A DNA stretch of 64,000 nucleotides, from positions 124,001-188,000 of the forward strand of contig NZ_JAHVAI010000001.1 in the NCBI RefSeq assembly GCF_019264375.1, given 5' to 3'. Shown here piece after piece: positions 60,490 to 64,000 of this stretch; position 1 is the first letter of the stretch, and each line of letters opens with the position of its first letter. The notes beneath the pieces were generated by a model. The model saw nothing but the letters and a program-made list of their open reading frames with translations. It did not search any database and was not told the origin of the DNA. The DNA comes from Sedimentimonas flavescens. GTDB lineage: Bacteria; Pseudomonadota; Alphaproteobacteria; Rhodobacterales; Rhodobacteraceae. The position numbers were made by a program, and so were the translations under genes.

Positions 60490-60564
60490 GGCCCGTTCGT
60501 CTATCGGTTAGGACGTCAGGTTTTCAACCTGAAAAGAGGGGTTCGACTCCCCTACGGGCTGCCA
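60490..60564 (+). tRNA. tRNA-Glu (TTC), copy 1
   Basis: A 75-base cloverleaf with encoded CCA. Acceptor GGCCCGT pairs with ACGGGCT (one G-U), discriminator G73, anticodon stem-loop CAGGTTTTCAACCTG (anticodon TTC), T-arm with GTTCGACTC. It is identical to the copy 20 bases downstream. Confidence 0.97.
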
Positions 60565-60584: not shown

Positions 60585-60659
60585 GGCCCGTTCGTCTATC
60601 GGTTAGGACGTCAGGTTTTCAACCTGAAAAGAGGGGTTCGACTCCCCTACGGGCTGCCA
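60585..60659 (+). tRNA. tRNA-Glu (TTC), copy 2
   Basis: A 75-base tRNA identical in sequence to the preceding one, separated by 20 bases. The pair arose by tandem duplication and is probably cotranscribed. Confidence 0.97.
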
Positions 60660-60740: not shown

Positions 60741-60767
60741 AAAAAGGCGGCCCTTGTCGGACCGCCC
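60741..60767 (-). terminator. Terminator of the bufA-D operon
   Basis: On the minus strand the stem GGGCGGTCC/GGGCCGCC is followed by TTTTTTGTTTT. It lies 22 bases after the bufD stop and closes the operon. Confidence 0.85.
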
Positions 60768-60788: not shown

Positions 60789-61250
60789 TCAGACGTGGCG
60801 GGTCATCCCTGCCCCGGTCTCTCCGCTGTTACGCAGCAAAAGCGCGTCCAGCGACAGCCGCCCCGGCCCGCCCGAGATGAGGCCAAGGAAACAGGCCGCC
60901 CAGATGCCATGCACGGGCCAGGCGTCAGGATAAACGAAGACCTGGATCACCGTAGTCATCCCCAAGAGCGCCAGCGCCGCCAGCCGTGTCCCCAAGCCCA
61001 GAACCAGCAGGATCGGCAGCGTCAGTTCGGCGCTGGTGGCCATCACCGCGGCAAGCTTGGAGGGGATCAGCGGTAGGGCGTATTCGTGCTCGAACAGGAA
61101 ATAGGTGCTCTCCTTGATCGAGAAGCCTTCGATCTTGGTCTGCCCCGAGGCCCAGAAGGTCCAGGCCGGGAACAGGCGTAGCGCAAGGCCGGCAATATCC
61201 CAGGGCATCCGGGCCAGCAGCGCGTCGGCGCGGTTCAACAGGTTCAGCAT
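60789..61250 (-). CDS. bufD: DoxX family membrane protein of bufferin operon
   Basis: This 153-residue protein has four hydrophobic spans (about 20-40, 65-90, 95-115 and 118-140). It carries DoxX features, with [20 protein letters not shown] near the start. It is the fourth gene of bufA-bufB-bufC-bufD, overlapping bufC by 7 bases. DoxX proteins often occur with DUF692/DUF2063 pairs, and redox or membrane roles are suspected, not shown. The ATG at 61250 ([12 protein letters not shown]) is chosen. Confidence 0.82.
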
Positions 61251-62008
61251 GTGCAGTCCTCCCATCCGATGATTGCGCCCGCCGCGAAGAGGCGGAACAG
61301 GATTGGCCCGACGTCAAAGCCGGGCTCGGCCGTCGCTGCGGCCTCGGCCGCGCGGATCAGCGGCGCTTGCCCCAACAGTTCACGCGCAAAGGCCGCCTCG
61401 CCCGGGCCAAGTGCCCAGACCGGCACGTCAAGCTTGCGATCGCGCAGCACCAGCGCCGTCTCGGGGCGGTCCTCGATCTCTTGCGGGGCGGCGCCGGGCT
61501 GGTTCGCGGCCCAGATCGCGCGGATCGCGTGACCCGAGGCGATCAGGGTGACCGACGGGTGCAGCACCAGCCGGATCGCATCGGCCCGCGCCGCCAGCGC
61601 GCCCAGATCGGCAGGGGCGAGCGCGGGCAGGTCGGCGGCGTGATAGGCCTGCCCCCGCGCATATTCGAGCCGCGCGACATCGGGCAGATAGGGCAGCGCC
61701 GCGACCGGTGGAAAACCTTCCAGAAATTCGGCGAAGCCCTCCCCCCAGGCAAAGAGCACGGGCGAGTTCGGCGGGTCGGCCTCGACATAGACCCGCGCCA
61801 TGGCGTTGAAGAAATCTGCGCCAACGAGGCGCTCGATCACCGGAAAGCGGGCCGCCAGCGCGCGGCCAAGCGAATGCAGCACATTGTTGCGATAGACAGC
61901 GAAACGCTGCGCGGCCTCGGCCGGATCGCGCGCGGTTACGCCTTGCGGCAGCTCACCATCGAAGATGCCCCGGCGAAACGACTGCGCGAAGGCTTCATGC
62001 GCAGACAT
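61244..62008 (-). CDS. bufC: DUF2063 protein, partner of the MNIO enzyme
   Basis: This 254-residue protein has the DUF2063 pattern at its N-terminus ([28 protein letters not shown], about 37-64, followed by [19 protein letters not shown]). A smaller C-terminal domain completes it. In bufferin and methanobactin-like systems a DUF2063/MbnC-type partner recognises the precursor and binds the DUF692 enzyme. It overlaps bufB by 14 bases, a sign of coupled translation of the two partners. Confidence 0.85.
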
Positions 62009-62852
62009 GGGTCCGCTCCGCTTGGGGCGCATGGGCGCGCAGGATACGGGCTGCCCGGCGGGCCTCGTCCAGCAGGACCGGGTAATCGGGCACATCGTTA
62101 TCCCATTCGATCAGGCTGGGCAGCGGCCCGGTGCGGGCGATGACCTCGTCAAACAGCGTCCAGACCGGATCGGCCACCGGCGCGCCGTGGCTGTCGATCA
62201 GCAAGGGCCCCGAGGGCAGTTCCTCAACCGCGTGACCGCCCAGATGAATCTCGCCCACCTGATCAAAGGGGAACTCGGCCAGATAGGCGCGCGCATCGGT
62301 GCGGTGGTTCGTGGCCGAGACAAAGACGTTGTTCACGTCGAGCAGCAGTCCGCAGCCGGTGCGCTGCGCGATGGCGCGCAGGAACTCGGTCTCGGGGATG
62401 GTCGAGGTTTCGAAAAGAACATAGGTCGAGGGGGTTTCCAGAAGCATCCGGCGCCCGAGGGCTTCTTGCACCTCATCGACATGGTCGCAGACGATGCGCA
62501 GGGTTTCGTCGGTATAGGGCAAGGGCAGCAGGTCATTGAGATAGGCCTCGCCGTGGCTCGACCAGGCCAGATGCTCGGAAAAACTCTCGGGTTGGTAGCG
62601 ATCGACCAGCGCGCGCAGCCGCGCCAGATGCGCCGTGTCGAGCCGCCCCGGTCCGCCTATCGACAACCCCACGCCATGCAGCGAAATCCCGAAATCGGCG
62701 CGCAGCGCGGTCAGCATCGCATGCGGCGGGCCGCCCGCGCCCATGTAATTCTCGGCATGGATCTCGAAGAAGCCCAGATCGGGGTCACAGGCGATCTGCG
62801 AGAAATGCTCGGGCTTGAAGCCAAGGCCGGGGCGTGCGGGAAGCTGGGTCAT
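61995..62852 (-). CDS. bufB: MNIO/DUF692 multinuclear iron oxidase (bufferin-modifying enzyme)
   Basis: This 285-residue TIM-barrel protein is of the DUF692/MbnB family. Metal-ligand motifs are visible: ENYMG (about 34), [38 protein letters not shown] and the final IEWDND. MNIO enzymes are non-heme di-/tri-iron oxidases that modify cysteines of ribosomal peptides. In bufferins they are reported to form thiooxazole-type groups. AGGAGAGAG lies before the ATG. Confidence 0.92.
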
Positions 62853-62874
62853 CGTCTCTCTCCTGATGGGGAAA

Positions 62875-62897
62875 GGGGCGCGGAGAGACCGCGCCCC
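62875..62897 (-). terminator. Strong hairpin between bufA and bufB (probable attenuator)
   Basis: The perfect 9-bp stem GGGGCGCGG/CCGCGCCCC with a 5-base loop starts 7 bases after the bufA stop and is followed by TTTCCCC on the minus strand. The short T-run suggests partial termination or 3'-end protection of a bufA transcript. The ribosome-binding site of bufB lies just after it. Confidence 0.75.
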
Positions 62898-62903
62898 GCC
62901 AGA

Positions 62904-63182
62904 TCACATCTTGACCGGTTCGAGCGAGCCCATCCCGTGCGGCGTCTTGATCGTCGCGCAGGTGCCGGCCGGGACATATTTCCAGGCGTTGCCCTGATAG
63001 TCCTTGGTCGCGGTGCCAGCGCAGGTGGTGCCGGGGCCAGCAGCGCAATCGTTTTGACCCGCCATGGAGACGCCATAGCACTTTTCCATCTCGCCCTCGG
63101 CATGGGCGGCCTGCGCGGCAACCAGCGTCAGCGCAGTGGCCAGCGAGGCGGTGAGCGGGAGGGTCTTGGAAATGATCGACAT
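62904..63182 (-). CDS. bufA: Bufferin-type precursor peptide (DUF2282)
   Basis: This 92-residue protein has a Sec signal peptide ([20 protein letters not shown]...AHA, cut at about residue 28). Its mature part of about 64 residues carries four Cys: [23 protein letters not shown] and PAGTCATI. This is the DUF2282 family, whose members are now known as bufferins, RiPPs modified on Cys by MNIO enzymes and proposed to bind copper in the periplasm. It heads the operon and has an ECF-type promoter upstream. Which Cys are modified cannot be told here. Confidence 0.88.
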
Positions 63183-63235
63183 TGAAGGTTCCTCATCTGT
63201 TGTGCAGAGGCGCTCTTGCGTCCTCGGGATGTCCA

Positions 63236-63261
63236 TTCGCGCCCCGCCCTGCCGGAGTTAC
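63236..63261 (-). promoter_or_regulatory. ECF (SigF-type) promoter of bufA
   Basis: On the minus strand GTAACT (63261-63256) and CGAA (63239-63236) are separated by exactly 16 bases. This fits the GTAACC-N16-CGAA consensus I recall for Caulobacter SigF. Transcription would start near 63228, about 46 bases before the bufA ATG. Confidence 0.75.
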
Positions 63262-63327
63262 AGACTTCACGCATAGGTGATCGTTTTGTGATCGCAGAAG
63301 TTTTTTGCCCCGATGTCACGTGGACGT

Positions 63328-63353
63328 GTAACAATCGGGTCGCTGTGAACGAA
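63328..63353 (+). promoter_or_regulatory. ECF (SigF-type) autoregulatory promoter of the sigma factor gene
   Basis: GTAACA (63328-63333) and CGAA (63350-63353) are again 16 bases apart, in the other orientation to the bufA promoter. The start of transcription would be near 63360, only about 6 bases before the ATG at 63366. Confidence 0.72.
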
Positions 63354-63365
63354 TGGACTGCCACG

Positions 63366-63920
63366 ATGTCAGACACCGAAGAGCTCTGGTCCGGGTTGAT
63401 GCGGGCGGCCAATCGCGGTGATGCGCAGTGCTATGCGCGTCTGCTGCATGCGATCTCGCCCGTGCTACGCGGCGTGGTGCGGGCGCGTGGCCGGGCGCTG
63501 CCGCCCGATCAGCACGAAGATATCGTGCAGGAGGTGCTCATGGCGATCCACGCCAAGCGCCACACCTGGCGCGAGGATCAGCCGATCCGCCCATGGCTTT
63601 TCGCGATCACGCGCTACAAGGTCGCTGATGCTTTCCGCCGCCGGGGTGTCGCGGCCACGCCGATTGAGGATGTCGCCGAGCGTCTGGCGGATGAAGGGGC
63701 AAGTGCCGCCATCGAGGGGATGGAGGCCGCGCAAGAGATCGAGCACCTGCTGAGCGTGCTCGACGCGCGATCGGCCGAGATCGTGCGCGCATTGAAACTG
63801 CGCGAAGAGGCCCCGGCGCAGGTAGCGCAGGGGATGGGCATGTCGGAGGGCGCGCTGCGGGTCAGCCTGCACCGCGCGCTGAAGAAACTCGAAGGTTTCA
63901 GAAGGAGGAACCTGTCGTGA
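63366..63920 (+). CDS. sigF: ECF RNA polymerase sigma factor, SigF-like
   Basis: This 184-residue sigma factor has region 2 with HEDIVQEVLMAIHAKRHTWRED.PIRPWLFAITRYKVADAFRR (about 48-90) and region 4 with EEAPAQVAQGMGMSEGALRVSLHRALKKL (about 148-176). The ATG at 63366 is chosen because the putative -10 element ends at 63353. The in-frame GTG at 63345 would lie inside the promoter. The next gene overlaps by 4 bases and starts like a DUF1109/NrsF anti-sigma factor, so this is probably the metal-responsive SigF pair known from Caulobacter. Confidence 0.88.
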   Translation: MSDTEELWSGLMRAANRGDAQCYARLLHAISPVLRGVVRARGRALPPDQHEDIVQEVLMAIHAKRHTWREDQPIRPWLFAITRYKVADAFRRRGVAATPIEDVAERLADEGASAAIEGMEAAQEIEHLLSVLDARSAEIVRALKLREEAPAQVAQGMGMSEGALRVSLHRALKKLEGFRRRNLS

Positions 63921-64000
63921 ATACCGATGATCTGATTGCTGAACTGGCGGGTGCTCCGGCACCGCAGCCGCTGAACACCGCGCGGATGGCCGGGTCGGTT
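63917..64000 (+). CDS. nrsF: DUF1109/NrsF-like anti-sigma factor (5' end, partial)
   Basis: A GTG at 63917 overlaps the sigma stop as GTGA and follows AAGGAGG. The first 28 codons read MNTDDLIAELAGAPAPQPLN, the usual start of DUF1109 proteins (six-TM anti-sigma factors with conserved Cys). The rest lies beyond the window, so the identification relies on the start and on the position next to a SigF-type sigma factor. Confidence 0.7.
   Translation, partial: MNTDDLIAELAGAPAPQPLNTARMAGSV

Follow-up and report, generated by a model that had tools for sequence, protein, structure and literature searches.

A 64,000-nucleotide stretch of the Sedimentimonas flavescens genome (contig NZ_JAHVAI010000001.1, positions 124,001 to 188,000; hereafter the window) carries a four-gene bufferin operon, bufABCD, divergent from a gene pair, sigF-nrsF, that encodes an extracytoplasmic function (ECF) sigma factor and its anti-sigma factor. 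The six genes are a real and intact-looking unit, and we consider it very probable (about 0.88) that they represent a Buf1-type bufferin operon controlled by an ECF sigma/anti-sigma switch of its own and corresponding to sigF-nrsF/CC3254-CC3257 in Caulobacter. Buf1 bufferins derive from DUF2282 precursors, and thiooxazole groups and copper chelation are attributed to Caulobacter Buf1 (Antoine et al. 2025, PMC12452194; this and the other papers cited by PMC number are represented here by excerpts). The 5-thiooxazole group is supported as a shared modification (Gadgil et al. 2026, PMC13097082), and sigma and NrsF genes are reported within Buf1 clusters (PMC12452194). Cluster, regulator pair, promoter and copper response have already been published for Caulobacter; the new part is a conserved dyad upstream of bufA.

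A sequence-only reading of the window had placed bufA, bufB, bufC and bufD in one operon divergent from an ECF sigma gene and named PF05114, PF09836 and PF10048 as the families to be searched for by hidden Markov model. Pfam, NCBIfam and the gene overlaps agree with that arrangement: these three families, the DoxX protein BufD and region 2 of the sigma factor all match above the Pfam cut-offs, and sigma region 4 lies slightly below its own. BufB, whose Pfam family is named MbnB_TglH_ChrH (PF05114), reaches 374.5 bits against NF050167 (MNIO_BufB, 'MNIO family bufferin maturase'; cut-off 310) and aligns to 3bww_A with E=4.6e-41, whereas BufC matches NF050145 (HvfC-like) over residues 33-210 of a 256-amino-acid (aa) query at 44.2 bits, under the cut-off of 142. 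SigF scores 56.3 bits against the ECF superfamily model TIGR02937 (cut-off 42.9). The buf genes run on the minus strand from 63182 to 60789, bufB/bufC and bufC/bufD overlap, and the start of nrsF overlaps the end of sigF. The likely start of bufC is at 62008 and that of bufD is the ATG at 61250, because GGAGGA precedes this ATG and the ATG overlaps the bufC stop, although a longer open reading frame (ORF) from 61265 is possible. As nrsF is interrupted by the window end, the complete gene was taken from the genome contig (L003:3918-4550); what had been seen as a DUF1109-like start is a true gene for a complete NrsF of 210 aa, and the closest named relative among the matches listed is from Sinirhodobacter sp. 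WL0062 (85%). The whole genome holds one match each for MNIO, DUF2282 and NrsF.

Both transcription units are preceded by a predicted sigma-F-type promoter that reads TGTAAC-N17-CGAATGGAC and matches the Caulobacter sigma-F motif GTAACC-N16-CGAA (Kohler et al. 2012, PMC3511200). TGTAAC-N15-19-CGAA matches twice in the window against 0.09 expected, and none of 100 shuffles reaches two. Among relatives, with at most one mismatch in the -10 element, the motif is found upstream of bufA in 49/56 loci and of sigF in 57/79, compared with 2 and 1 for a reversed-motif control; in 10 of these 57 sigF promoters the -10 tetramer reads CGTA. In divergent loci the motif is present at bufA in 34/37 and at sigF in 36/37. 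Where the buf operon lies upstream in the same direction, bufA has it in 14/18 loci and sigF in 0/18, so in these loci transcription of sigF probably starts at the bufA promoter. A wider exact-motif regulon was not apparent in the genome, which has seven TGTAAC-N16-18-CGAA sites against 11 for the reversed pattern, and no convincing target was seen by eye at the five sites elsewhere. The sigF ATG stands just 12 nt past CGAA (63327-63366, plus strand), and the sigF transcript would consequently be nearly leaderless; in Caulobacter, CC2907 has a start site at -7 (PMC3511200).

The association of the two gene sets recurs in the family, taken as Rhodobacteraceae from the names of relatives. The best 80 NrsF loci of 120 relatives hold sigF in 79, bufA in 56, bufB in 55, bufC in 55 and bufD in 44, and since bufA, bufB and bufC occur together in 55/80, the association is not due to chance. 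The bufferin genes are divergent in 37 of these loci (one with bufA only), upstream and co-directional in 18 and downstream in one; sigF-nrsF stands alone in 21 (some cut by contig ends) and beside an msrP-like gene in two, and nrsF is alone in one. Taken with the adjoining sigF-nrsF genes and the twin promoters, these counts support the earlier suggestion that the operon is coupled to its own sigma/anti-sigma pair. Seen from the side of the bufferins, the pair is less common: DUF2282 is found in 85/120 sampled family genomes and NrsF in 18/120, 15 of which also have DUF2282, so that 70/85 DUF2282 genomes have no NrsF match. By coordinates, DUF2282 and NrsF lie within about 2.9 kb on one contig in 13/18 NrsF genomes, and sigF stands beside bufA in 8 of the 29 best-scoring DUF2282 loci besides this one. 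Two further genomes (G007, contig C18, and G100, contig C45) each show two DUF2282 matches about 0.5 kb apart.

Two cysteines of NrsF are conserved in the aligned sequences, C127 in 81/81 and C177 in 80/81 (one gap), with only the C127 count unbiased because the search pattern for relatives included C177. They are 50 residues apart, as are C131 and C181 of Caulobacter NrsF, which together keep the sigma-F regulon quiet (Kohler et al. 2012, PMC3511200). BufA has four cysteines spaced C-X10-C-X7-C-X20-C and an N-terminus that, by eye only, shows a hydrophobic stretch and an AHA-E cleavage-like site and looks like a Sec signal peptide. The cysteine spacing had been proposed as worth chemical study and was dropped as a special feature, being identical in 55/56 relatives (the remaining BufA match is partial). 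Assignment to the Buf2 bufferins was rejected, as BufA has four cysteines where Buf2 has six or twelve and scores 20.9 bits against NF050166 (cut-off 60). The CTC tail at the C-terminus of BufC was likewise discarded as a conserved feature: among the ends compared, only this BufC and that of L065 carry it.

The likeness to Caulobacter extends to the four-gene order, the sigma/anti-sigma pair, the promoter motif, the NrsF cysteine pair and msrP as a co-target. It rests on published domains, lengths and motif, not on sequence alignment; the lengths here are 92/285/254/153/184/210, against 93/280/254/150/179/214 for CC3254-CC3257, SigF and NrsF (PMC3511200 Table 1). The published sigma-F targets are CC3254-CC3257 (DUF2282, DUF692, DUF2063 and DoxX), sigF-nrsF, CC2907-CC2905 and CC2748 (YedY-type) (PMC3511200), and unlike Caulobacter, with its second DUF2282 operon CC2907-CC2905, this genome has a single DUF2282 and a single MNIO match. 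Buf1 clusters in general, as described in PMC12452194, share the four-cysteine DUF2282 precursor, MNIO, DUF2063 partner, DoxX, sigma factor and NrsF, and nothing essential differs here. The gig (gold-induced) operons of Cupriavidus and Legionella are described there as bufferin clusters and are likened to this one by description only.

A third transcription unit probably belongs to the same regulon. On contig C62 an msrP gene (L043:1243), followed by an msrQ-like ORF, has the promoter TGTAAC-N17-CGTA, ending 32 nt before the ATG and detected only with one mismatch allowed. A survey of msrP recovered the gene from 13/18 NrsF genomes and from 19 of 24 chosen NrsF-less genomes (out of 102), and the motif precedes it in 4/13 and 0/19, respectively; the contrast (Fisher p ~0.02, hand calculation) is weak evidence because the sequences are related. 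We predict a regulon of sigF-nrsF, bufABCD and msrPQ. The sequence-only reading had called the bufferin unit self-contained, which it probably is not, because msrP on another contig has a near-identical sigma-F-type promoter and the conserved dyad at bufA hints that another regulator may be involved.

Several observations weigh against an ECF-controlled counterpart of the Caulobacter system. SigF does not reach the cut-off of any of the narrower NCBIfam models listed (177 bits against NF009165, cut-off 198), and GTAAC with a usable spacer is absent upstream of sigF in 22/79 loci and of bufA in 7/56. The msrP -10 element reads CGTA, not CGAA, msrP has no motif in 9/13 NrsF genomes, and none was found at the msrP-like gene in the two NrsF loci that adjoin one. 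Neither DUF2282 nor NrsF is matched in G046, a genome of the same genus, so members of the genus can do without the unit. In Caulobacter, mutants lacking sigF, or lacking CC2906 and CC3255, were not sensitised to chromium or cadmium (PMC3511200). G046 does have msrP, with no sigma-F motif at it, and points to the unit having been either lost or gained among members of this genus.

Metal sensing and BufA modification are carried over here from published Caulobacter work, as are sequestration of the sigma factor and copper binding. By this analogy, membrane-bound NrsF would hold sigma-F at rest, and metal stress, most likely copper, would perturb C127/C177 of NrsF and free sigma-F to transcribe bufABCD, sigF-nrsF and probably msrPQ. 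BufB, with BufC, would turn the two central cysteines of BufA into thiooxazoles, and BufA would be exported by Sec to bind copper in the periplasm, where MsrPQ would repair oxidised proteins. The dyad just upstream of the bufA -35 element hints that a second DNA-binding regulator may act on the operon.

Table 1 Features of the bufferin unit and its control region (window coordinates)
Feature	Coordinates	Strand	Description
bufA	62904..63182	-	Buf1-type bufferin precursor, 92 aa; PF10048 (DUF2282) E=2.2e-26
bufB	61995..62852	-	MNIO (DUF692) maturase, 285 aa; PF05114 E=1.3e-103
bufC	61244..62008	-	DUF2063 partner protein, 254 aa from likely ATG at 62008; PF09836 E=2.3e-24
bufD	60789..61250	-	DoxX membrane protein, 153 aa; PF07681 E=2.9e-18 (longer ORF searched)
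sigF	63366..63920	+	ECF sigma factor, 184 aa; PF04542 (sigma region 2) E=3.9e-8
nrsF	starts 63917, past window end 64000	+	Anti-sigma factor NrsF (formerly DUF1109); PF06532 E=4.8e-38
bufABCD promoter	63236..63262	-	Predicted, sigma-F-type TGTAAC-N17-CGAA, then TGGACA
sigF-nrsF promoter	63327..63353	+	Predicted, sigma-F-type TGTAAC-N17-CGAA, 12 nt before sigF ATG
Dyad box	63267..63280	-	TCAC-N5-CGTGA, one mismatch from CACG-N4-CGTG; 5 nt before GTAAC; putative regulator site
Terminator-like hairpin	60745..60767	-	3' of bufD; 9 pairs, then T-rich tail

The dyad emerged from 50 bufA promoters (49 loci and this one) aligned on GTAAC, in which wCAC-N5-CGTGA has a constant position, its first base 19 nt upstream of GTAAC. 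It is fixed in 37/50 promoters (27 match all nine positions, 8 miss one and 2 miss two); the other 13 miss four or more at -19, and no other offset is shared by more than 3 loci. Scored as CACG-N4-CGTG in 68 family loci (69 less L040, which has too little upstream sequence), it occurs upstream of bufA exactly in 32/68 and within one mismatch in 54/68 (0.2% and 7.6%, respectively, in shuffled sequence). As a control, GCAC-N4-GTGC gave 0 exact matches and 3 within one mismatch, and spacers of 1-9 other than 4 gave no exact match save one at spacer 9. Because the dyad was first spotted in the promoters themselves, the 40 extra loci scored only after the box had been defined serve as a test on unseen data, and they gave 17 exact matches and 28/40 within one mismatch. 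The dyad is also concentrated upstream of bufA: in 20 loci (190,020 bases), 13/16 exact copies lie within 150 nt upstream of bufA, and within one mismatch it occurs upstream of bufB in 0/20 and of nrsF in 1/80. In this genome TCAC-N5-CGTGA occurs at 10 places (14 hits counted by strand, compared with 4 for the control).

The dyad is retained at bufA loci in which no sigF was seen, exactly in 27 and within one mismatch in 45/57. One locus in this count, L216, comes from a genome (G026) in which NrsF is found at a distance of about 2.9 kb. Only the 20 loci of 9.5 kb establish firmly that sigF is not nearby (0/20), because the 40 extra loci span only about 1.5 kb. The loci with no sigF seen include 46 in which a dyad falls within 170 nt; a pair of dyads separated by exactly 15 bp is present in 25 of these 46, and 19/45 (shuffle maximum 9) have TA at position +38 counted from the first base of the dyad, which resembles a -10 element set at a constant distance. 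Beyond bufA, the dyad precedes msrP within one mismatch in 5/13 NrsF genomes and in 8/19 without NrsF (shuffles 8-9%), with none at msrP of this genome, and it precedes sigF, again within one mismatch, in 9/22 loci without bufA (shuffle 11.8%; the raw 10/23 included L091, a slicing artefact at a contig edge). A looser regular expression for the dyad matched 25/50 bufA but also 33/58 sigF upstream regions; the sigF matches are taken to be, for the most part, the bufA boxes themselves, lying in the region that the two divergent units share, because the sigF set has no fixed-column consensus.

These patterns suggest that the dyad is a putative site of a second DNA-binding regulator. No description of it was recognised in listings of open-access papers, where a differently written motif would escape, which is not evidence of its being unpublished, and the excerpts of PMC3511200, PMC12452194 and PMC10141476 do not mention it. 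We lean, somewhat beyond even odds, towards Rhodobacteraceae bufferin promoters being controlled by a candidate transcription factor that would bind CACG-N4-CGTG, using two dyads spaced by 15 bp in loci that lack sigF and a single dyad just upstream of the -35 element in loci with sigma-F/NrsF. The same site may also mark part of the msrP promoters and a subset of the sigF loci associated with DsbD and thioredoxin genes, and sigma-F would then be an added layer on an older operator. A dyad-like site also lies before a response-regulator-like ORF (by eye) at L255:1501-1514 (C62:75744-75757); it may have arisen by chance or may point to the regulator of the dyad.

A stronger version, in which the putative dyad-binding regulator mainly drives the operon and sigma-F/NrsF is a later or auxiliary input, is possible yet doubtful. 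The frequency of the dyad in the first and the unseen loci, its retention and doubling where sigF is missing, the TA at +38, its concentration upstream of bufA and the many DUF2282 genomes with no NrsF match all speak for it. Against this, no binding protein is known, and no regulator gene was evident beside bufA in the 20 sigF-less loci (by eye, among no more than 16 neighbour families, each present in at least 4 loci). This locus has a single copy with one mismatch, only 4/14 bufA loci outside the family have the dyad within one mismatch, and one-mismatch counts are also raised at spacer 2 (23/68) and spacer 9 (19/68).

Nor need copper be the signal: the operon could answer another stress (hypochlorite or methionine oxidation, chromate, cadmium or gold), with copper binding incidental. 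Chromate and cadmium both elicit a sigma-F response in Caulobacter (PMC3511200), msrP is predicted to be co-regulated in this genome, and DsbD_TM-like and thioredoxin-like ORFs stand beside sigF-nrsF in about 10/23 loci without bufA, so that this explanation has points in its favour. We judge it unlikely, given that a 2021 study found the Caulobacter SigF regulon, including msrPQ, to be copper-induced and a sigF::Tn5 mutant to be copper-sensitive (PMC8224329), and that Buf1 is stated to chelate copper (PMC12452194). The thiol-redox neighbours suggest that control by sigma-F/NrsF may extend to an operon for periplasmic thiol redox chemistry. Pfam, run on the L105 members alone, identifies the divergent neighbours at L105:3087-4225 as DsbD_TM (CcdA-like) and thioredoxin-like, and one neighbour ORF from the clustering (L087) gave no Pfam match. 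That the genes are a remnant or unexpressed, with BufA unmodified, is very improbable: no direct point favours it, and against it the open frames are intact and overlap translationally, two promoters match the motif, and the gene order recurs in many named genera. A bufferin operon under its own sigma/anti-sigma switch remains the reading we prefer.

At the 3' end of the operon, the terminator-like hairpin is weak evidence alone, because the region has 5 hairpins where shuffles lead one to expect 2.5, although its position suits the end of the operon. Two tandem tRNA-Glu (TTC) genes, at 60490-60564 and 60585-60659 on the plus strand, adjoin this end.

The unit adds a Rhodobacter-group example with predicted promoters to a published copper-buffering system. 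If a dyad-binding factor does act on these promoters, bufferin control would be two-layered. Since bufA loci with and without sigF share the upstream dyad, in a family in which most DUF2282 genomes have no NrsF match, bufferin induction without sigma-F is directly testable.

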